A stretch of 64,000 bases of DNA from Oscillospiraceae bacterium (GTDB lineage Bacteria > Bacillota > Clostridia > Oscillospirales > Ruminococcaceae), in assembly GCA_021201235.1 (NCBI GenBank), contig JAJQFI010000016.1, positions 124,001 to 188,000 on the forward strand, in the 5' to 3' direction. Made by a program: the position numbers and the translations under genes. How positions within the stretch are numbered: position 1 is the stretch's first letter; each line of letters opens with the position of its first letter. The notes under the pieces are model-generated. The model made no database searches and was not told the DNA's origin. It was given only the letters and a program-made list of their open reading frames with translations. Of this stretch, positions 52,641-61,466 are shown one piece after another.

Positions 52641-53303
52641 TCAGATTTTCACTTGGTGATCGACATGAGCGTTTTCGGAGATTTCAAGACTTTCTGAGTA
52701 TTCAACTTTTCCAATCTCACAACCGTCGCCTATCGTTACATTAGCACCACGGACTACATCAGCCTTGACAAGCTCAAGTCTTATCTCATCGCCCTCGATA
52801 GTGCCGATTTCTGAACGCTTTATTTTCTTTTTGCCGAACCAATATGCTTTCTTTTCTTTTTTGGGAGCTATTTTGATAGTTCCACCACCGATTTCATTGG
52901 CTTTGACACCATCACCATCAAACGCGATTCTTATTTCGTCGCCGTTAATAAGCCCATTGACGTTTGCCACACCATCGATAGTGACTTTCTCGCCCGAAAC
53001 ATTGCCGTCTGCAATGACTGAACCTGCGAACCACAATTCTCCATTAGCTTCTATGCTTTTAACTTTTGCGGAACCGGCAAGATGACAGCTTCCGCATTTT
53101 ATGTCGCCGTCAACCCGACCAGAACCAGCGATTTTGAATTCGCCTGAACATTCTACAGAACCCGCAATATGCACCGAGCCGGCACTCTTGAGACTCTGGC
53201 ACTTGACATCTGATGTCACCTCGCCTGAACCGCTTATGCTTATGTTTTTATACTCTCCTCCGCCGACATTGCCGGCGCCACTGATACGTACTGAATCTGC
53301 CAT
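52641..53303 (-). CDS. Bactofilin-like polymer-forming protein
   Basis: A 220-residue, almost all-beta protein with repeating short strands (SISGSGEVTSDVKCQSLKSA, HIAGSVECSGEFKIAGSG), as in the right-handed beta-helix bactofilin family of cytoskeletal polymers. A Lys-rich insertion (KKEKKAYWFGKKKIKR) interrupts it at about 150-165. It resembles YhbE/YhbF of Bacillus. The gene upstream is a YhbD-type regulator, the same partner as in Bacillus, 4 bp away. Ribosome site AGGAG. Confidence 0.85.
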   Translation of the reverse strand: MADSVRISGAGNVGGGEYKNISISGSGEVTSDVKCQSLKSAGSVHIAGSVECSGEFKIAGSGRVDGDIKCGSCHLAGSAKVKSIEANGELWFAGSVIADGNVSGEKVTIDGVANVNGLINGDEIRIAFDGDGVKANEIGGGTIKIAPKKEKKAYWFGKKKIKRSEIGTIEGDEIRLELVKADVVRGANVTIGDGCEIGKVEYSESLEISENAHVDHQVKI

Positions 53304-53307
53304 TATA

Positions 53308-53709
53308 TTATTTCTCCTGAGATTTATTTATTACTGTGTTGTTGCCTGAGATAATTTCCGTCAGGTCCCTCTCATCGTCGCCTATCTTAACGATGACCGA
53401 AACTAAATCGGATATATTTATCTCCTTTGTCCAATGCTTTGAATTGATGATGAGCTTCGCCTCATGCTCGGTTTTGCCCTGAAGCTCACGCGCAATCTGT
53501 TCAAGCGGAACCTGATCCTTGCGGGCGATTATCGCCTCGATACGCTCACAGATTTGCTCCTCATCGAAGAATGTCTCCTGCCCTGTGTAGGTGGACTTCT
53601 TGACAAGCCAGTCATCAGGGATAAGACCCATCCGCTTCCAGCGGTAAAGGGTGCCGTATGAGATGTTGTACTTATTCAGAAGCTCTTTTTTGGAAATCAA
53701 AACGCTCAA
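53308..53709 (-). CDS. YhbD-family (DUF4004-like) MerR-type HTH regulator
   Basis: 133 residues starting with TTG after GAGGT. The N-terminal MerR-like helix-turn-helix is SKKELLNKYNISYGTLYRWK, followed by GLIPDDWLVKKSTYTGQETFF, typical of the YhbD/DUF4004 family. The C-terminal half carries a KIGDDERDLTEIISG segment. It heads a two-gene unit with the bactofilin and is probably the protein that binds the large palindrome covering its own promoter. Confidence 0.83.
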   Translation of the reverse strand: MSVLISKKELLNKYNISYGTLYRWKRMGLIPDDWLVKKSTYTGQETFFDEEQICERIEAIIARKDQVPLEQIARELQGKTEHEAKLIINSKHWTKEINISDLVSVIVKIGDDERDLTEIISGNNTVINKSQEK

Positions 53710-53806
53710 GATATCACTACCTCTCTTTATTACCTGAGAAGCCTAAGCCGCCAAGTGGTAAAAGCGGCTTTAAGCTTCCAAGGCTTCGGATGAAACGGTG
53801 CTTTTT

Positions 53807-53860
53807 CGTAACAATGTTATGTTACGATTAGATTGTAACATAACATTGTTACGTTGTCAA
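53807..53860 (-). promoter_or_regulatory. Promoter with twin operators of the YhbD-bactofilin unit
   Basis: TTGACA (53855-53860), 17-bp spacer, TACAAT (53832-53837). A perfect 19-bp inverted repeat (53807-53825 and 53835-53853, 9-bp centre) covers the spacer, the -10 flank and the start point. Each arm is itself dyadic (GTAACA-6-TGTTAC), so there are two operator sites. MerR-type regulators often bind a dyad inside the spacer. Confidence 0.85.
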
Positions 53861-53896
53861 TAGGCAAATGCAGATTTTTGAAAAAATTTTTCGGGC

Positions 53897-53927
53897 ACAA
53901 AAAACGGGCAGATTTCTCCGCCCGTTA
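53897..53927 (-). terminator. Terminator of metQNI
   Basis: AACGGGC and GCCCGTT pair on the minus strand and are followed by TTTTTTG. Confidence 0.85.
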
Positions 53928-53946
53928 ATTACGAATTACGAATTGA

Positions 53947-54654
53947 TTATGATGTCCTGTCTCTTGGTCTTCGGTCAAGTCTCGTCGAAAGGTGTGTACC
54001 TACCGTCTGGATTATCTGAACTAAAAGAATCAGGAAGATTACGGCTAACAGCATTACCAAGTAGCGATAACGATAGTAGCCGTAGTTGATGGCTATCTTG
54101 CCGAGACCGCCGCCGCCGATGATGCCGCTCATTGCGGAATAGCCGAGGATTGTGGTCATCGCAGTGGTGAGATTTGAAAGAAGTGAAGGGATGCTTTCGG
54201 GAATCATTACTTTGATGATAATCTGAATCGGTTTTGCACCCATGCTCTGCGCCATTTCGATGATGTTCGGGTCGAGCTCCCTCAGGCTCGTCTCAACAAG
54301 TCTTGCGATAAACGGAAATGCGGCGATTACGAGAGGAACAATGGATGCGACGGTTCCTACTACAGTTCCCACAATCAGTCTTGTCAACGGGAATACCATT
54401 ATCATAAGAATCAAAAACGGGATTGAGCGCAACAGATTTATTATTACGTTCAGGACGTGGAGGAAACCGGAAGGGATTTTCAGAATCTTCTTGTCCCCTG
54501 CCACGAGGATTACTCCGAGAGGCAGACCGATCAGAACCGCAAAGAAGGTTGAAATGACGGTGACATATACCGTCTCCCAGATTGCCATCGGGAACTCGTT
54601 GACGAATATTTCAATAGTCTTCTGGACTTCCTCTGAGCTGAAAAATTCAAGCAT
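53947..54654 (-). CDS. metI: Methionine ABC transporter permease
   Basis: A 235-residue permease with five to six helices and the EAA-type motif ELDPNIIEMAQSMGAKPIQII. It pairs with MetN to move D- or L-methionine, or related compounds, across the membrane. The ATG overlaps the metN stop by 8 nt. Length and ending are normal for MetI. Last gene of metQNI. Confidence 0.94.
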   Translation of the reverse strand: MLEFFSSEEVQKTIEIFVNEFPMAIWETVYVTVISTFFAVLIGLPLGVILVAGDKKILKIPSGFLHVLNVIINLLRSIPFLILMIMVFPLTRLIVGTVVGTVASIVPLVIAAFPFIARLVETSLRELDPNIIEMAQSMGAKPIQIIIKVMIPESIPSLLSNLTTAMTTILGYSAMSGIIGGGGLGKIAINYGYYRYRYLVMLLAVIFLILLVQIIQTVGTHLSTRLDRRPRDRTS

Positions 54655-55657
54655 TTGGTCTTACCTCCTCTGCGATAATGTCGGGAATTTCTCTTAGGTA
54701 GCTGATGGCTTCGTTTGCAAGGGCTTCGTCGCCGGTGACGCTTAAGAGCATATTGCCATAGGCTTTGCCGCCGATGCTTCGGGTGGAAGCGGAACGGATG
54801 CTTGCCGGGATGTTTCTGTCCATTGCCATCTGGGCAATAAGAGGCGTCTTGCTGACCTCTGCACCGTTATAGACGACACGGATAAAGTGCTCGCCGGGAG
54901 TAGGAGCCAAAGTCTCGGAATAGCTGTCCGGGTAAACCAAACGCTTGGCGGCTTCCGACTTCGGAGCCGAGAAGACCTCGTTTACGGGTCCCTCCTCGGC
55001 GACTTCTCCGCCGTTGAGAATTGCGACTCTGCCGCAGATTTCTTCAACTACGCTCATCTGGTGGGTTATGACTATGACCGTTAAGCCGAGCTTGTCCCTT
55101 ACGTCGCGGATGAGCGAAAGAATCGAGTGGGTTGTCTGGGGGTCGAGGGCGCTCGTAGCCTCATCGCAAAGAAGAATCTTCGGATGGGTTGCCAAAGCTC
55201 TCGCGATTGCAACACGCTGTTGCTGACCGCCGGAAAGCTGTGCGGGATAGTTCTTGGCCTTGTCGGCAAGACCGACGATATCAAGAAGCTCGGTGGCTCT
55301 TGCGACGGCTTCCGACTTCTTCACTCCCGCCAGTTCAAGCGGAAAGCAGACGTTTTTCAGGCAATTACGTTGCATAAGAAGGTTGAAATCCTGAAAAATC
55401 ATCGTTATCTTCTGGCGCTCCTGCCTGAGCTGAGCCTCGGAAAGCTCACTGAGATTTACGCCGTCAATAAGGACGCTTCCCTCGGTCGGGCGTTCGAGCA
55501 TGTTTATACATCGGACGAGGGTGCTTTTTCCCGCACCGCTCATGCCAATGATTCCGTAGATTTCGCCGTCGGGAATGGTGAGGGAGATGTTTTTGAGTGC
55601 CTCGACATCGCCCGATTTCGTGGTAAATGTCTTCGACAGATTCTTGATTTCTATCAT
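54647..55657 (-). CDS. metN: Methionine ABC transporter ATP-binding protein
   Basis: A 336-residue ATPase: Walker A GMSGAGKST, signature LSGGQQQRVAIARAL, Walker B ILLCDEATSALDP, then the C-terminal NIL domain (about 265-336, FIRVVYNGAEVSKTPLI), which binds methionine and causes transinhibition in E. coli. The ATG follows a weak AAGGAG-like site. A stable hairpin lies between it and metQ and may lower its expression relative to the binding protein. Confidence 0.95.
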   Translation of the reverse strand: MIEIKNLSKTFTTKSGDVEALKNISLTIPDGEIYGIIGMSGAGKSTLVRCINMLERPTEGSVLIDGVNLSELSEAQLRQERQKITMIFQDFNLLMQRNCLKNVCFPLELAGVKKSEAVARATELLDIVGLADKAKNYPAQLSGGQQQRVAIARALATHPKILLCDEATSALDPQTTHSILSLIRDVRDKLGLTVIVITHQMSVVEEICGRVAILNGGEVAEEGPVNEVFSAPKSEAAKRLVYPDSYSETLAPTPGEHFIRVVYNGAEVSKTPLIAQMAMDRNIPASIRSASTRSIGGKAYGNMLLSVTGDEALANEAISYLREIPDIIAEEVRPNA

Positions 55658-55693
55658 TTTATCTCCTTATAGGATTAATAGATACAACCCGAA

Positions 55694-55720
55694 AATACGC
55701 CGAGTATTCTTCGGCGTATT
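55694..55720 (-). terminator. Hairpin between metQ and metN
   Basis: AATACGCCGA and TCGGCGTATT form a perfect 10-bp stem with a 7-nt loop and a short T run. Probably a partial terminator or an mRNA stabiliser giving more MetQ than MetN and MetI. Confidence 0.65.
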
Positions 55721-55747
55721 CTCTGGGGTTTAAGTTAGGTATAGATA

Positions 55748-56605
55748 TTACTCAGTGATGGCATCGAGAGAATCCTGCTTGCCACCGTAGAGACCCATCG
55801 GCTCAACGTGTACGACAGATACGGAAACGATGTGAGTGCCGTTCTGCTCGTTGAAGTCGTCGAGGTAAGGAGTGTGCTGGAAGTAGTTGGCGTCAACTTC
55901 GCCGCTCTCAACAACGTTGTTCGGCTGAACATAGTCGGTGAATTCGATGATGTCGAGGGTGATGTCCTTCTCGGCGAGGATTTCCTTTGCTACTGCAAGG
56001 ATTTCAGCATGAGGAGTAGGAGATGCGGCGACGGTGATGGTGGTACCAGCAAGCGCGTCGTAATCGACGGTATCATCATAGCCGTCGCCGGGGTTTTCAA
56101 CGGTGCTTACAACAGCTCCGTCATAGCTTGAAGCGATGAAATCAGCAACCTGCTGACTTTCGAGAGCCGCCTTGAGAGCCTTGATCTTGTCGGTGTCTTC
56201 GTTGCCTTCCTTTACTGCTAAGATGTTGCCGTAAGCGGAGGATGAGCCTTCGATTGCGAGAGAATCCTCAACCGGGTTGAGACCGGCTTCAATTGCATAA
56301 TTGGAGTTGATGATTGCATAGTCAACGTCCTGCAAAACATTCGGGAGCTGTGCGGCTTCAACCTCGCTGAACTCGATGCCGTAGGGGTTGTCCTCGATGT
56401 CGGCAACGGTTGCAGTGATTCCCGCACCATCCTTGAGGGTTATGTATCCGAGCTCTTCAAGAAGAAGAAGTGCTCTTGCCTCGTTGGTGGTGTCGTTCGG
56501 GACTGCGATGGTTATAACGTCATCGGTGTCGCCGCAAGCGGTCAGAAGTGTGAGCGAGAGAACTGCGCACAAAAGAAGCGATATAAATCTCTTGAAATTT
56601 TTCAT
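55748..56605 (-). CDS. metQ: MetQ/NlpA-family methionine-binding lipoprotein, circularly permuted
   Basis: A 285-residue lipoprotein (signal ends LTAC, Cys24). Every MetQ block is present but in rotated order. Residues 30-168 match the second half of ordinary MetQ (ITIAVPNDTTNEARALLLLE, EVEAAQLPN, YAIINSNYAIEAGL, YGNILAVKEG, YDGAVV). Residues 187-283 match the first half (TVAASPTPHAEILAVAKEIL, EFTDYVQPNN, EVDANYFQHTPYL, VHVEPMGLY, DSLDAI). A linker of about 18 residues (about 169-186, GDGYDDTVDYDALAG) joins the old C- and N-termini. The cut falls where a normal protein runs from SLDEL into VAVPND. The lipid anchor therefore attaches at a different place. It leads metQNI and has its own promoter and a LysR box. 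Confidence 0.9.
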   Translation of the reverse strand: MKNFKRFISLLLCAVLSLTLLTACGDTDDVITIAVPNDTTNEARALLLLEELGYITLKDGAGITATVADIEDNPYGIEFSEVEAAQLPNVLQDVDYAIINSNYAIEAGLNPVEDSLAIEGSSSAYGNILAVKEGNEDTDKIKALKAALESQQVADFIASSYDGAVVSTVENPGDGYDDTVDYDALAGTTITVAASPTPHAEILAVAKEILAEKDITLDIIEFTDYVQPNNVVESGEVDANYFQHTPYLDDFNEQNGTHIVSVSVVHVEPMGLYGGKQDSLDAITE

Positions 56606-56665
56606 AGTGTGTGATTTCCTTTCTATACGAATTAACCTTGTGTTAATTCGGTTTTGATGTTCCCT

Positions 56666-56694
56666 ATTCTACATCCTCCCGACAGATTTGTCCA
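56666..56694 (-). promoter_or_regulatory. metQNI promoter
   Basis: TGGACA (56689-56694), 17-bp spacer, TAGAAT (56666-56671). The leader contains a perfect 9-bp hairpin CGAATTAAC/GTTAATTCG (56628-56650). No S-box or Met T-box was seen. Confidence 0.65.
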
Positions 56695-56717
56695 ATACGT
56701 CGTTTTGATAGTTGGTT

Positions 56718-56732
56718 ATAGATTTTACCTAT
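56718..56732 (-). promoter_or_regulatory. LysR-type binding site before metQ
   Basis: ATAGGTAAAATCTAT on the minus strand is a dyad with the T-N11-A pattern of LysR regulators. Its centre lies about 66 bp before the predicted metQ start point, the classical position. The LysR gene ends at 56739, right beside it. Confidence 0.65.
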
Positions 56733-56738
56733 AGGATT

Positions 56739-57665
56739 TTATTTTCCACCGTGATTTTGTCCGAGATAATTTTGTATCTCATCAATATATCTCTGACCGA
56801 CAGAGCTCAACTGAATATTCTTCTTGGTGATATAGCCTATCTCCATGCGGCTTCCCGATTCGTCTTCGGTTCTGAACGGAATCGCCATATAGTCGCTTCC
56901 GTTGAGCTCTTCGCAGATTATGCCGCTACAGAGGGTATAACCGTTTAAGCCGACCATTAAATTAAGCATGGTTGCACGGTCATTGGTTTTTATCGTGTAG
57001 GCATATTCCGAAGTACTGAGGATTTCCTCGGCAAAGTAGAAGGAGCCGGTGTCGCCCTGCTCAAAGGAAAGGCAGGGATAGCTCTTAAGCTCCTCGAAGC
57101 CGATTGACTCGTTTTTTGCGAGAGGATGCCCCTTCCAGAGATAGACATAAGGGGCGCACTCGATGAGATGGTGAAATTCGAGATTGTTGCTCTTAAGAAT
57201 CTTGCCGATTGCGGCGCGATTGAAGTCACATAAGTAGAGGATTCCTATCTCACTCTTCATGGTGGTGACATCGGAGATAACGTCCCTCGTCTTGGTCTCA
57301 CGGATAGCGAACTCGTATTCTGCGGAGTCGTAGTGCTTGACGAGCTCGACAAAGGCTTTTACGGCGAAAGAATAATGCTGAGTGGAAACCCCGAACTTCT
57401 TTTTATAGCTCTGATTGCCGTACTTCTCGATAAGGGATTCATACTGGTTATAGAGCTGTCTGGCATAAGGAAGAAACTCCGCGCCGTCGTTTGTGAGGCT
57501 TACTCCCCTGCCTGAGCGATAGAAAATAGTGATGCCGAGCTCCTTCTCGAGCTCCTGCATCGAGCTTGTCAGAGACGGTTGGGCGATGTATAAAACCTCA
57601 GCCGCCTTATTGAAAGAGCCGGTTTCGGAAATTGTGATTGCATACTTAAGTTGTTGGATTGTCAT
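56739..57665 (-). CDS. LysR-family transcriptional regulator
   Basis: 308 residues from MTIQQLKYAI (GAAGGGATG site); 36 open codons upstream overlap the previous gene and are excluded. N-terminal winged helix (about 1-60: GSFNKAAEVLYIAQPSLTSSM) and a two-lobed effector domain. It lies directly upstream of metQNI on the same strand with a T-N11-A box between them, so it probably senses methionine or a sulfur intermediate and controls the transporter. It is 4 bp after the 57670 gene. Confidence 0.9.
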   Translation of the reverse strand: MTIQQLKYAITISETGSFNKAAEVLYIAQPSLTSSMQELEKELGITIFYRSGRGVSLTNDGAEFLPYARQLYNQYESLIEKYGNQSYKKKFGVSTQHYSFAVKAFVELVKHYDSAEYEFAIRETKTRDVISDVTTMKSEIGILYLCDFNRAAIGKILKSNNLEFHHLIECAPYVYLWKGHPLAKNESIGFEELKSYPCLSFEQGDTGSFYFAEEILSTSEYAYTIKTNDRATMLNLMVGLNGYTLCSGIICEELNGSDYMAIPFRTEDESGSRMEIGYITKKNIQLSSVGQRYIDEIQNYLGQNHGGK

Positions 57666-57669
57666 GTTA

Positions 57670-58416
57670 TCATCCCTTCGTATAGATAAATTTGTTGCCT
57701 TCTTTGCCCTTAAAATTGATGAGCCCCATCTCTTCAAGCATCTTGAGTGCTCCGTAAAGTGCCAAGCCGTCAAGCCTCGTAAGCTTTGAATAGTCCTTGC
57801 GAGTGAATGTATCCGGCAAAGCTTCCGGCAGGAAAATGCGATAGTCGGAGGGCTCGCTTAAAAAAATCTCGTCATAGAGCTCGAGCGGCATGCGGTCGTT
57901 GCGGGTGGCACGGTGCTTTTTTCCTCTGCCGTAGCCGTCTTGGTTCTTTATATCCCAAACGTCTATCAGCTCGAGAATCACCTGCACCTTGCCGCTCGTG
58001 AGATAATCTTTTATATTGTAGAGCTCATAGATGCAATCAAAAGCCGTGCCTGTTTTCGGAGAGCGGCGTTTCGGGGTGAGCTCACCGGTTTTCGGGTCGA
58101 GCCACGAAATCCACTTTTTATGTGGAATCGGATAGACGACGGTGGTATAATAGCCCTCGGAGATGTAATACTCAAGCTTTTCCCGAAGGCGTTTCAGAGC
58201 CCGGGTCTGGATTTCGATTATGTCCTTGTCGCGGCAGATGTCAGCAGTGAATTTGCCGATACCCACCTCGTGATAGTCGGGGTCGGGCTCATGATAATAT
58301 TTCAGGACCGCGTGGAGATACTTTTCGGAAAGGGTTCCGACACCTGCGGACACAAGAAGCTCTTCACGAGGTCTCTCCAAGAGCTCCGAAAATCGCTTTT
58401 TCTCGGATTCTGTCAC
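57670..58416 (-). CDS. Protein of unknown function with nuclease-like D-ExQ pattern and C-terminal winged-helix segment
   Basis: I do not recognise the family. From GTG (VTESEKKRFSELL, after GGGGGACAGG) the product has 248 residues. At about 45-80 the pattern KFTADICRDKDIIEIQTRAL recalls the D...E-x-Q core of PD-(D/E)xK nucleases such as CoiA-type proteins, followed by VVYPIPHKKWISWLD. The middle is rich in Lys and Arg (GYGRGKKHRATRNDR). The end (LDGLALYGALKMLEEMGLINFKG) looks like a winged-helix wing. Upstream codons of the longer frame overlap the promoter. It is co-transcribed with the LysR gene. Confidence 0.65.
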   Translation of the reverse strand: MTESEKKRFSELLERPREELLVSAGVGTLSEKYLHAVLKYYHEPDPDYHEVGIGKFTADICRDKDIIEIQTRALKRLREKLEYYISEGYYTTVVYPIPHKKWISWLDPKTGELTPKRRSPKTGTAFDCIYELYNIKDYLTSGKVQVILELIDVWDIKNQDGYGRGKKHRATRNDRMPLELYDEIFLSEPSDYRIFLPEALPDTFTRKDYSKLTRLDGLALYGALKMLEEMGLINFKGKEGNKFIYTKG

Positions 58417-58450
58417 ATGCCTGTCCCCCTTTCGCACTGAAATTAAATAC

Positions 58451-58479
58451 AGTATAGCACAAATCAGCGAAAGTTTCCA
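58451..58479 (-). promoter_or_regulatory. Promoter of the 57670-lysR unit
   Basis: TGGAAA (58474-58479), 17-bp spacer, TATACT (58451-58456). Confidence 0.6.
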
Positions 58480-58510
58480 CTGTAAAATCGAATTATTTGA
58501 CCGCCGCGGC

Positions 58511-58539
58511 TTGCTTTTAGACACGAAAAGGTGTATAAT
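58511..58539 (+). promoter_or_regulatory. Promoter of the M16 protease gene
   Basis: TTGCTT (58511-58516), 17-bp spacer, TATAAT (58534-58539). Confidence 0.75.
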
Positions 58540-58595
58540 CGTTATTGGTAAATTTTTAAAGCCTACAATAACGATTACATATAGGAGGTTAATAA

Positions 58596-61466
58596 ATGTC
58601 AGAATTATTCCACGGCTTTGCCGAAACGAGAGTCAGAGAGCTCTCCGAAATCGATGCGAAGCTCCACGAAATGAAGCACGTTAAGTCGGGCGCACGACTT
58701 ATCTGGATTGAGCGCGAGGACGACAACAAGACCTTTGGCATCGCCTTCAAGACCCTGCCGGAGAACGACACCGGTGTGTTCCACATTCTTGAGCACTCGG
58801 TTCTCAACGGTTCCGACCGTTACCCCGTCAAGGAGCCGTTTGTCGAGCTTCTTAAAAACTCGATGAACACCTTCCTCAACGCCATGACCTTCTCAGACAA
58901 GACGGTCTATCCTGTTTCGAGCAAGAACAATCAGGACTTCATCAATCTGATGAGGGTTTATCTCGATGCCGTTTTCCATCCGCTTATCTACTCAAAGCCG
59001 GAAATTTTCTATCAGGAGGGCTGGCACCACGAATTTGCCGAGGACGGCACCGTCAGCTATAAGGGCGTTGTCTTCAACGAGATGAAGGGCGCGACTTCCG
59101 ACCCGGACGACATTCTTGAAGAAGCTGTCATGCAGGGGCTCTTCCCCGACAACTGCTATAAGCACAATTCTGGCGGCGCACCGGCGAGCATTCCCGACCT
59201 CACTTATGAGATGTTCATAGCGAACCACAAGAAGTATTACGACCCGTCGAATTCCTATATCTTCATCGACGGCAGTGTCGACATCGACACGACTCTCGGC
59301 ATCATCGACGACGAGTATCTCAGTCACTACAATGCCGCTCCCGAGATTCCTCCGATAGATATGCAGAAGCCGATTGACGGCGGCGTTATCGAGTATGAGT
59401 ATGGTCTTTCGCCTTCCGAAGAACTCGAAGGTCACACAAGGCTCGCCTATGGCAACGTTATCGGAACCTACGACGAATACGAGAAGCTCATCGCTATGGA
59501 TGTTCTGGCGGAAGTTCTTGCGGGAACAAACCACTCGCCCTTGAGCAGAGCGATTCTCTCGGAAGGTCTTGCCGAGGACGTTATATTCAGAATCTCCGAC
59601 GGAATTTTACAGCCTTATGCAGTTATTGAAATAAGAAATCTTAAGGATGAGAATAAAGACAAGGTCGAGAAGCTTGTCCGTGACACTCTTACCGGTATTG
59701 CCGATAACGGCGTTGACCGCGAACAGCTTGAGTCCTCGATGGCGAACCTTGAATTCAAGCTCCGTGAGAAGAACTACGGACCGAAGGGTCTTGTATTCGG
59801 GCTCACCGCTCTTGACACATGGCTCTATGGCGGCGACCCGGCAACAAAGCTTGTTGTCGGCGACATGTTCGAGGATCTGAAGAAAAAGGCTGACGAAGGC
59901 TACTTCGAACAGCTCATCCGAGACGTTCTCCTTGACAACAAGCACACCTGCAAGGTTGTCCTTAGGCCCTCGCACACCTATGCCGAAACAACCGCTGAAA
60001 AGGAACAGGCAAGACTTAAGAGAGAAGAAGAATCATGGACTCCCGAAGAGCGCGAGACTCTTATCGAAAAGCAGAAGAAACTTGAGGCTTGGCAACACAG
60101 TGAGGACACTCCTGAGAATCTGGCAACGCTTCCGATGCTTAAGCTCTCGGATCTCCCCGATGAGCCTGAGAAGTTCCCGATGGAAGAGGCTGAAAACGGT
60201 GGCATGAAGGTGCTTTTGCACAAGCTGAATACTTCCGGAATCGTCTATACAAATCTCTATTTCGATGCTACCGACCTCAGCGAAAAAGAGCTCTCTGCGG
60301 CTTCGCTTCTTTGCTCGTTACTCGGAAAGCTCGACACCAAGTCACACTCAGCCGAAAAGCTCCAGACGCTTCTTAATTTCTATTGCGGAAGCTTCGGTGC
60401 GAAGGTTTCGGCTTATCCGTCTGCCGACAATTATGACGTCAAGTTTGTCGTTTCCTTCTCGGCTCTTGAGACAAAGCTTGAAAACGCTACGAAGCTCGTC
60501 TGCGAGATTCTTTCGGAAACCAAGCTCGATAATGAGACCTCCGTTATGGAGATTCTCAGGCAGGAGAAGACCGACGTCTTCCAGAGCATTCTTATGAGAG
60601 GAAACTCGGTGGCTTTGGGCAGAGTCAACGCTCAGATTTCACCCGCAGGCGTTGTCGGCGAGTACACCTCCGGTATCAGCTACTACAAGACCCTCGGCGA
60701 GTTTGAAAGCGAGAGCAAGTCACTTCTCTCTGCTCTTGAAAGCGTCAAGAATAAGGTTCTCGGCTCCGATAGAGCCATTGTGAGCATCACCGGTGAGATG
60801 GCAAATGCCGCTAAGACAGTTGTTGACTGCGTCAGCTCCACCCTCCCCGCTGTCGGAAAGCCCGACGGCAAGGCAGACTTGAAGCCGTTCGGCATCAAGA
60901 AAGAGGGCATTGCGGTTCCCACTGAAATCGCCTTTGCGGCTATGGGAAGCAGTGTTACGGATCTCGGCGAGAAGGTCACCGGAGAATACAGCGTTGCGGC
61001 AAGAATCCTGACATATGGCTACCTCTGGAACGTCATCAGAGTTCAGGGCGGCGCATACGGCACCGGCTTCGTCGTAAGGGATTCGGGATATATCACCTGC
61101 CACTCCTATCGTGACCCGAGCGCAAACCGTTCGCTTGGCTACTTCAAGAAGAGCGGCGAGTTCTTAAGAGACTTCCTGAAGAATAACGACGACCTCACAG
61201 GCTTCATCATCGGAAGTGTTTCTGACATGTTCCAACTCACCACTCCGAGCACGAAGGGCGTTATCTCCGACAACAGATACTTCACGGGCATTACTCCCGA
61301 GCGTGTCAATGAGAAGTACCACGAACTCATCGGTGCAACACCCGAGAAGCTCACGGAGCTTTCATACAACGTAGATAAAGTCATCTGCGACGGCGGCATC
61401 TGCATCGTCGGCTCGAAGAAACAGCTTGACGAATGCGAAGAGCTCGACAGCGTCGAAACCCTTTAA
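58596..61466 (+). CDS. M16C-family zinc metallopeptidase (presequence-protease-like)
   Basis: A 956-residue peptidase of the insulinase superfamily, in the PreP/Cym1 branch with both halves in one chain. The inverted zinc motif HxxEH is in VFHILEHSVLNG, and the distal Glu lies in GVVFNEMKGA. The inactive second half begins after a charged hinge (about 450-530, rich in Lys and Glu). There is no signal peptide, so it acts in the cytoplasm on small peptides. Ribosome site AGGAGG. Single gene with its own promoter and terminator. Confidence 0.93.
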   Translation: MSELFHGFAETRVRELSEIDAKLHEMKHVKSGARLIWIEREDDNKTFGIAFKTLPENDTGVFHILEHSVLNGSDRYPVKEPFVELLKNSMNTFLNAMTFSDKTVYPVSSKNNQDFINLMRVYLDAVFHPLIYSKPEIFYQEGWHHEFAEDGTVSYKGVVFNEMKGATSDPDDILEEAVMQGLFPDNCYKHNSGGAPASIPDLTYEMFIANHKKYYDPSNSYIFIDGSVDIDTTLGIIDDEYLSHYNAAPEIPPIDMQKPIDGGVIEYEYGLSPSEELEGHTRLAYGNVIGTYDEYEKLIAMDVLAEVLAGTNHSPLSRAILSEGLAEDVIFRISDGILQPYAVIEIRNLKDENKDKVEKLVRDTLTGIADNGVDREQLESSMANLEFKLREKNYGPKGLVFGLTALDTWLYGGDPATKLVVGDMFEDLKKKADEGYFEQLIRDVLLDNKHTCKVVLRPSHTYAETTAEKEQARLKREEESWTPEERETLIEKQKKLEAWQHSEDTPENLATLPMLKLSDLPDEPEKFPMEEAENGGMKVLLHKLNTSGIVYTNLYFDATDLSEKELSAASLLCSLLGKLDTKSHSAEKLQTLLNFYCGSFGAKVSAYPSADNYDVKFVVSFSALETKLENATKLVCEILSETKLDNETSVMEILRQEKTDVFQSILMRGNSVALGRVNAQISPAGVVGEYTSGISYYKTLGEFESESKSLLSALESVKNKVLGSDRAIVSITGEMANAAKTVVDCVSSTLPAVGKPDGKADLKPFGIKKEGIAVPTEIAFAAMGSSVTDLGEKVTGEYSVAARILTYGYLWNVIRVQGGAYGTGFVVRDSGYITCHSYRDPSANRSLGYFKKSGEFLRDFLKNNDDLTGFIIGSVSDMFQLTTPSTKGVISDNRYFTGITPERVNEKYHELIGATPEKLTELSYNVDKVICDGGICIVGSKKQLDECEELDSVETL

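Follow-up and report, generated by a model that had tools for sequence, protein, structure and literature searches.

The window, a 64,000-nucleotide stretch of DNA from an Oscillospiraceae bacterium, contains the genes metQ, metN and metI, in that order and on one strand. The genes and features of the locus are as follows (positions are those of the window).

53903..53926, minus strand: terminator-like hairpin downstream of metI, with a 10-bp stem and a T run (consensus match only)
53947..54654, minus strand: metI, permease (Pfam BPD_transp_1)
54647..55657, minus strand: metN, ATPase with a NIL domain (Pfam ABC_tran and NIL)
55748..56605, minus strand: permuted metQ, encoding a lipoprotein of 285 amino acids with PF03180 in swapped order (ORF, Pfam and phmmer)
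55757..56044, minus strand: block A of metQ, residues 188-283, the N-terminal part of ordinary MetQ (about residues 32-127 of E. coli MetQ)
56045..56104, minus strand: new linker, residues 168-187 (20 residues)
56105..56515, minus strand: block B of metQ, residues 31-167, the C-terminal part of ordinary MetQ (about residues 132-268 of E. coli MetQ)
56534-56536, minus strand: codon of Cys24, the putative lipid-accepting residue of the lipobox LTAC (read from the sequence)
56537..56605, minus strand: signal peptide, residues 1-23 (read from the sequence)
56666..56694, minus strand: promoter-like site TGGACA-17-TAGAAT, 10/12 matches (consensus match only)
56739..57665, minus strand: LysR-type regulator gene upstream of metQ (Pfam HTH_1 and LysR_substrate)

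A MetN-like ATPase with a NIL domain and a MetI-like permease adjoin metQ, as in a MetNIQ system. The top NCBIfam models were TIGR02314 (MetN) for the metN product, at 365.9 bits and under its cut-off of 499.7, and PRK10782 (MetI) for the metI product, at 195.5 bits and under its cut-off of 212. As the original prediction stated, metN and metI lie downstream of metQ on the same strand, and a signal peptide, a lipobox and a ribosome site can be read from the sequence, the last as a Shine-Dalgarno-like AAAGGAAA ahead of the metQ ATG. A promoter had been proposed as well. The sigma-70-like site exists (56694-56666), but a lone site of this kind is weak evidence because the 3.1-kb scan yielded 10 of them where 3.6 were expected.

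The LysR-type gene, with its start taken as the ATG ahead of the helix-turn-helix domain, possibly encodes a regulator of the metQNI operon; a LysR-type gene is found upstream of metQ in some relatives too. In a search for a riboswitch, no Rfam family reached the gathering threshold within 53000-58600. A gene for a DUF4004 protein also lies beside metQNI (53308-53709, minus strand). Its product has a helix-turn-helix match below threshold, and the gene has a promoter-like site of its own (53860-53832, 11/12 matches).

The two blocks of MetQ are in swapped order

We found that the metQ product matched PF03180 at 278.6 bits (cut-off 27), in two stretches. The better of these aligned protein residues 32-167 with profile positions 99-234. 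The family cut-off is thus passed, but the ordinary N-to-C order of the profile is not followed, and on this evidence the protein is a PF03180 homologue with a permuted topology and no ordinary member of the family. We obtained the same picture when the whole draft genome that contains the window (32 contigs) was searched with the profile. The stretch with profile positions 99-234 came first and the stretch starting at profile position 1 lay downstream, both within metQ, with E-values of 1.5e-48 and 6.6e-35. The second stretch (profile 1-145) overran the metQ stop codon, through three TAA codons. This search found no further PF03180 match in the genome.

Proteins of known structure gave a similar result. 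All 22 PDB sequences matched by phmmer did so in two stretches, and the swap was visible in all three printed alignments. In 4ib2, for example, residues 33-166 of the window protein corresponded to residues 112-249, and residues 188-285 to residues 11-108. None of the 22 was a single full-length colinear match, as a solved structure of a permutant would be. The NCBIfam model for MetQ itself, TIGR00363, also matched in two stretches, at 163.3 bits. This is below its whole-protein cut-off of 228.85; a linear profile penalizes a swapped order. When its blocks were put back in ordinary order, the identity of the window protein was 37% with E. coli MetQ and reached 62% with ordinary relatives. Block by block, identity to the closest ordinary MetQ was approximately 50-60%.

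The rotated block order that had been predicted was therefore borne out by the PF03180 stretches, by the matches to PDB sequences and by colinear homologues (see below). The block that is normally in the middle follows the lipobox (residues 31-167), and the block that is normally N-terminal comes last (residues 188-285). Aligned to E. coli MetQ, as had been proposed, the two blocks corresponded to residues 132-268 and then 32-127. A new linker (residues 168-187) joins the old ends. The cut had been placed between two adjacent residues of the ordinary chain. This is nearly right, but the E. coli MetQ blocks, 32-127 and 132-268, leave a junction loop of approximately 4 residues unmatched. Chance can be excluded, given the E-values of the two stretches and the conservation of the order in other species. 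These comparisons confirm, at the level of sequence, that the window gene encodes a circularly permuted MetQ.

The permuted metQ is under purifying selection and its methionine pocket is conserved

We compared the window gene with nine of its ten orthologues from the genus, leaving out a copy with an internal stop. The values of dN/dS were 0.03-0.07, and the permuted metQ is under strong purifying selection. The linker was as conserved as the rest of the protein. In an alignment of 29 homologues (the window protein and 28 chosen loci, a subset of the permutants), the mean majority fraction was 0.77 for the linker and 0.78 for the core, and the linker columns were free of gaps.

According to excerpts of the paper on N. 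meningitidis MetQ (PMC6739813), methionine is contacted by Y81, F98, H100 and Y103 on one lobe and by R156, N213 and N238 on the other. We took these residues from that text and mapped them by motif through E. coli MetQ. The window protein has all seven, and so does every row of its family (65 of 65). Together with the purifying selection and the metNI neighbours, this supports the prediction that the gene is functional. That the protein is a MetQ by function, binding and transporting methionine, is a well-founded hypothesis.

It is also conceivable that the protein no longer transports methionine and has another role, with a different ligand or without transport. In a MetQ family permuted at a different cut (described below), Thr replaces the pocket His in 5 of 5 proteins, and the ligand may differ there; among ordinary rows, 14 of 69 have this Thr. 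The window family, in contrast, retains the complete pocket, and the gene is adjacent to metNI, with a MetN that carries a NIL domain. We therefore consider a loss of methionine transport highly improbable and favor a role in methionine uptake.

Predicted structure of the permuted protein

We predicted the structure of the window protein with AlphaFold2, using an alignment of 29 natural permutants and no templates. The resulting model was confident (pLDDT 94.2, pTM 0.87), which supports the earlier suggestion that the fold could be kept. In a sequential structure comparison, MetQ chains were top-ranked. They aligned mainly to model residues 1-140, and the aligned portion of the PDB chains was their C-terminal part; one row, 1p99, extended to model residue 222. 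Coverage of about one half is what a permutation predicts for aligners that work sequentially. The model matched 6CVA, a substrate-free open form, at 1.7 Å over 140 residues and the other MetQ chains listed at 3.1-4.4 Å. These values fit with the model being open and with block B extending across the two lobes. Matches to OpuAC, HisG, LAO and GlnP domains (model residues 1..256, rmsd 3.6-7.1 Å) were read as lobe pseudo-symmetry and were not used.

The cut separates the two sets of contact residues, as expected for the first crossover between the lobes. It presumably lies where the ordinary chain passes from lobe 1 into lobe 2, and the permuted chain would keep one covalent crossover. New ends at this place would put the lipid anchor at the start of lobe 2. 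It is reasonable, as had been suggested, that the moved anchor may alter docking of the protein on MetNI.

The swapped order is widespread and is not an assembly artifact

We looked for the same order in related genomes, as had been recommended, and found it in samples of the genus, the order and the class. Of 31 genomes of the genus, 14 had a match at 1e-6. Eleven of these were full-length colinear permutants, the window's own included, and three were distant proteins in ordinary order. The permutants were 90-100% identical to the window protein, and 10 of the 30 other genomes had a full-length colinear copy. One of the 11 copies (L012/L043) had an in-frame TAG, which reflects either a decayed copy or a sequencing error. 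A scan of genome contigs covered 45 loci: 34 had the window's cut (including those of Faecalibacterium sp. An121 and An122), one had another cut (L068), and 10 were ordinary.

In the order sample (394 genomes, 122 with a match at 1e-10), 31 genomes had a single full-length colinear match with E < 1e-82, and these fell across 9 family codes. One genome of this sample, G541, contained a further, divergent permutant. In the class sample of 341 genomes, 16 full-length matches (own included) were found among the 144 genomes with a match at 1e-20. Full-length permutants ranked first in both samples. The permuted order thus extends to many Bacillota beyond the genus and Faecalibacterium. A search of 319 genomes of the phylum for divergent same-cut permutants gave three matches and no new permutant of this kind: the window, a locus of the window's family (L218) and a tandem pair (L217). 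Among 35 genomes with permuted loci, 31 showed nothing beyond the pair of half-matches that a single permuted gene gives, G079 had an ordinary MetQ besides the permuted one, and G069, G087 and G089 had two permuted copies each (block order in multi-copy genomes was checked for the copies fetched).

These data bear on the possibility that a misassembly or a chimeric contig created the swapped order. The genome assembly is a draft, in 32 contigs, and by their titles many of the related records are metagenome assemblies. However, the same order and linker are present in 10 other genomes of the genus, in Faecalibacterium genomes that are not labelled metagenomic and in G550, a genome with a contig of 2.55 Mb. 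Independent assemblies of different species thus share it, and we regard the probability of an artifact as negligible.

The partner genes were usually found alongside. Of 45 non-redundant same-cut loci with at least 2 kb of downstream sequence, 40 had metN and metI on the same strand, and at the other 5 the two were not both found nearby. Among the remaining loci that passed the same filter, 12 of the 23 with ordinary order had both genes, as did the divergent same-cut loci (4/4) and the one different-cut locus (1/1).

Several variants of the protein were seen. At L062 and L064, the permuted MetQ has a signal peptide without a lipobox, and neither metN nor metI was found alongside; each of these genomes also carries a divergent permutant with metNI. 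The permuted MetQ of Faecalibacterium and of some others has a Tat-type RRxFL signal ahead of the lipobox (L057-L061, L066, L067, L077, L168 and L176). L061, the only one of these scanned, was over the cut-off of TIGR01409. In L182 (1483-3198, minus strand), G244 and G361, ordinary MetQ blocks are part of ORFs of 572-581 amino acids with extra N- and C-terminal parts; by eye, the extra N-terminal part of L182 resembles another substrate-binding protein.

MetQ has been permuted repeatedly

We put the blocks of 143 non-identical MetQ proteins into a common order and thinned the set by identity, from 143 to 119 to 107 rows. On a maximum-likelihood tree of these 107 rows, three changes of order were needed. 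The window's family, group (a), formed one group of 36 rows (support 94/49). Group (b) has the same cut and comprises L134, L143 and L181, which formed a clade (100/100). It joined the ordinary rows L018, L021 and L081 in a quick tree (100) and belongs to another MetQ subfamily. In group (b), the matched blocks are 39-48 residues apart; this distance counts in the first residues of block A. The divergent same-cut permutants with longer linkers are L134, L143, L144 and L181, and the signal peptides of L143 and L144 have no lipobox.

Group (c) has a different cut, inside the second block, and its order is B2-A-B1. Its loci are in Erysipelotrichaceae-type genomes:

L068:5710-6780, L111-L114, L135-L138 and L219-L224: group (c), different-cut permutants

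L068 is labelled as a metagenome-assembled Solobacterium sp.; Solobacterium is a genus of the Erysipelotrichaceae. Within the family of L068, group (c) was seen in at least 5 of 145 genomes, and the sample of the order to which L068 belongs contained it in 11 of 196 (block order was checked for the loci fetched). The AlphaFold model of this group, based on 5 sequences, was poor (pLDDT 48.8), and a kept fold is accordingly tentative here. It was nested among ordinary rows of the same family sample (clade support 100/99), and its ordinary kin, like group (c) itself, have the change from the pocket His to Thr. Of the 145 family genomes, at least 7 had the window's cut, one of them with a member of group (b).

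A tree of the MetI partners agreed with the MetQ tree on groups (a) and (b). The partners of group (a), apart from L179/L180, formed one group (SH-aLRT 94), and those of group (b) joined the partners of ordinary L018 and L021 (SH-aLRT 99). The MetQ tree weakly supports a place for L179/L180 within group (a). They have a different linker of 16-17 residues and an upstream metI, and their MetI partners are outside the main group. Possibly, L179/L180 represent a fourth permutation event.

The same-cut groups share the site at which the chain is opened, and this might indicate that all same-cut permutants had a single origin, with the ordinary relatives that intervene being reversions or errors of the tree. 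Some ordinary rows near the divergent group are long-branched, which lowers trust in the tree. A single origin of groups (a) and (b) was nevertheless rejected (p-AU 0.0063), and 0% of 200 bootstrap trees united the same-cut permutants. The divergent group's MetI partners join those of ordinary MetQ, as noted above, and the linkers differ between groups. The re-ordered window protein was 62% identical to ordinary L184/L185 but 33-35% identical to the four divergent permutants. Moreover, any return to ordinary order would amount to a second permutation, and the different-cut family would still require an event of its own. We consider a single origin unlikely. That MetQ was permuted at least three times is well supported by the trees. 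The results thus go beyond the original prediction in two respects: the permuted gene belongs to a widespread family, and MetQ has been permuted repeatedly.

A possible route to the permuted gene

The linker of L068, of group (c), is TSFIDADGKPVSGGEIPQAGDDK. Its start resembles the C-terminal tail of ordinary relatives (SF[IV]D-type tails were in 6 of the 8 ordinary rows printed), and its end resembles their N-terminus after the lipobox. A linker made of the parental C-terminal tail and N-terminus is a mark of tandem duplication, fusion and trimming. In the linker of the window's family, no parental tail was seen in comparison with 11 ordinary rows, so for this family the duplication route is drawn by analogy; we suggest that it is the most likely one. 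In L217 (1078-2769, minus strand; genome G1136 of the phylum), a single stop separates two tandem ordinary metQ genes that share a reading frame. This pair is a candidate for an intermediate-like arrangement.

We propose that metQ would have undergone an in-frame tandem duplication, followed by fusion of the copies and trimming of the outer halves. The conserved 20-residue linker would join the old ends, and the new ends would lie at the crossover between the two lobes, so that the lipid anchor is attached where lobe 2 begins. Fold and methionine pocket would be kept, and the protein would serve the adjacent MetNI. An independent event at the same cut would have occurred in another MetQ subfamily, and another, at a different cut, in Erysipelotrichaceae relatives. 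Taken as a whole, it is very probable that the window gene encodes a working, anchored, permuted MetQ that keeps its fold and pocket and feeds MetNI, and that MetQ underwent at least two further independent events.

Why permuted forms persist is a separate matter. We see an even chance that the permutation is neutral: MetQ would tolerate it, tandem copies would be frequent, and permuted forms would have drifted to fixation and spread by descent and lateral transfer. The tandem ordinary metQ genes of G1136, the three close block matches in G718 and two in G833, and the unchanged pocket residues are in keeping with this. On the other hand, the new ends have without exception been opened within the R156-bearing lobe or where it begins, and linker length is almost constant in the main family; both observations hint at constraint without proving an advantage. 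In groups (a), (b) and (c), the part with R156, N213 and N238 is the one that follows the N-terminus, whereas the other lobe comes first in ordinary MetQ. A bolder reading, which we regard as rather doubtful, is that MetQ is a permutation hot spot in Bacillota, with at least three, possibly four, independent duplication-born events at two cuts that moved the anchor from lobe 1 to lobe 2 and were favored because anchored MetQ would then reach MetNI, or work on it, better. Repeated origin is its well-supported part; a shared selective reason for relocating the anchor to lobe 2 is hypothetical.

Relation to known proteins

The original prediction knew of no described permuted MetQ, and this claim survived our search of the open-access literature in PMC, in which no report of one was found among the matches listed. 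There is a precedent for the phenomenon in print, the permuted substrate-binding lipoprotein TpMglB-2 (Tp0684). In excerpts of its description (PMC4990184), it is a circularly permuted glucose-binding lipoprotein for which a "Type Ic / Cluster Bc" was proposed; it has relatives in Gram-positive gut bacteria, it retains ligand binding and conformational change, and its authors, too, raise anchoring as a possible driver of the change. Like the window MetQ, it is a natural permuted substrate-binding lipoprotein. It differs in belonging to another family and fold class (Type I, sugar) and in its cut, which is inside the N lobe and adds a fourth crossover (same excerpts), whereas that of the window protein corresponds to E. 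coli MetQ 127/132. The permuted part of TpMglB-2 is given there as 13% identical to MglB, far from the block identities of the window protein to ordinary MetQ. The window protein has PF03180 as its only Pfam match, and thus lacks the MglB-type homology of Type Ic/Cluster Bc. Permutation has likewise been applied to a substrate-binding fold to study evolution, in halves of ribose-binding protein (PMC9815098, in part); those permutants are designed single halves, whereas the window MetQ is a natural whole protein.

The closest relatives are the ordinary members of the MetQ/NlpA family (PF03180), such as MetQ of E. coli and N. meningitidis, which share with the window protein both blocks, the ligand-contact residues, the lipobox and the metNI partners. 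Compared with these, the window protein has the order swapped and the old ends linked anew, and its anchor, on lobe 1 in ordinary MetQ, would be attached where lobe 2 begins, with one of the two lobe crossovers opened. The window MetQ is made of ordinary parts in a permuted chain and is notable for the repeated origin of this arrangement.

Natural circular permutations are mostly known through the comparison of distant families. In this case, a single bacterial order contains both ordinary and permuted MetQ, which are approximately 60% identical. With these coexisting forms, a linker made of parental ends and a tandem pair, the route by duplication, fusion and trimming is directly testable. 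The permuted MetQ is also a natural experiment on the position of the lipid tether in an ABC importer; in Neisseria, the MetQ lipid is needed for full stimulation of MetNI, according to excerpts of PMC8416018. All three NCBIfam models that matched the window protein scored under their cut-offs, and permuted members of the family may therefore be misnamed or missed.
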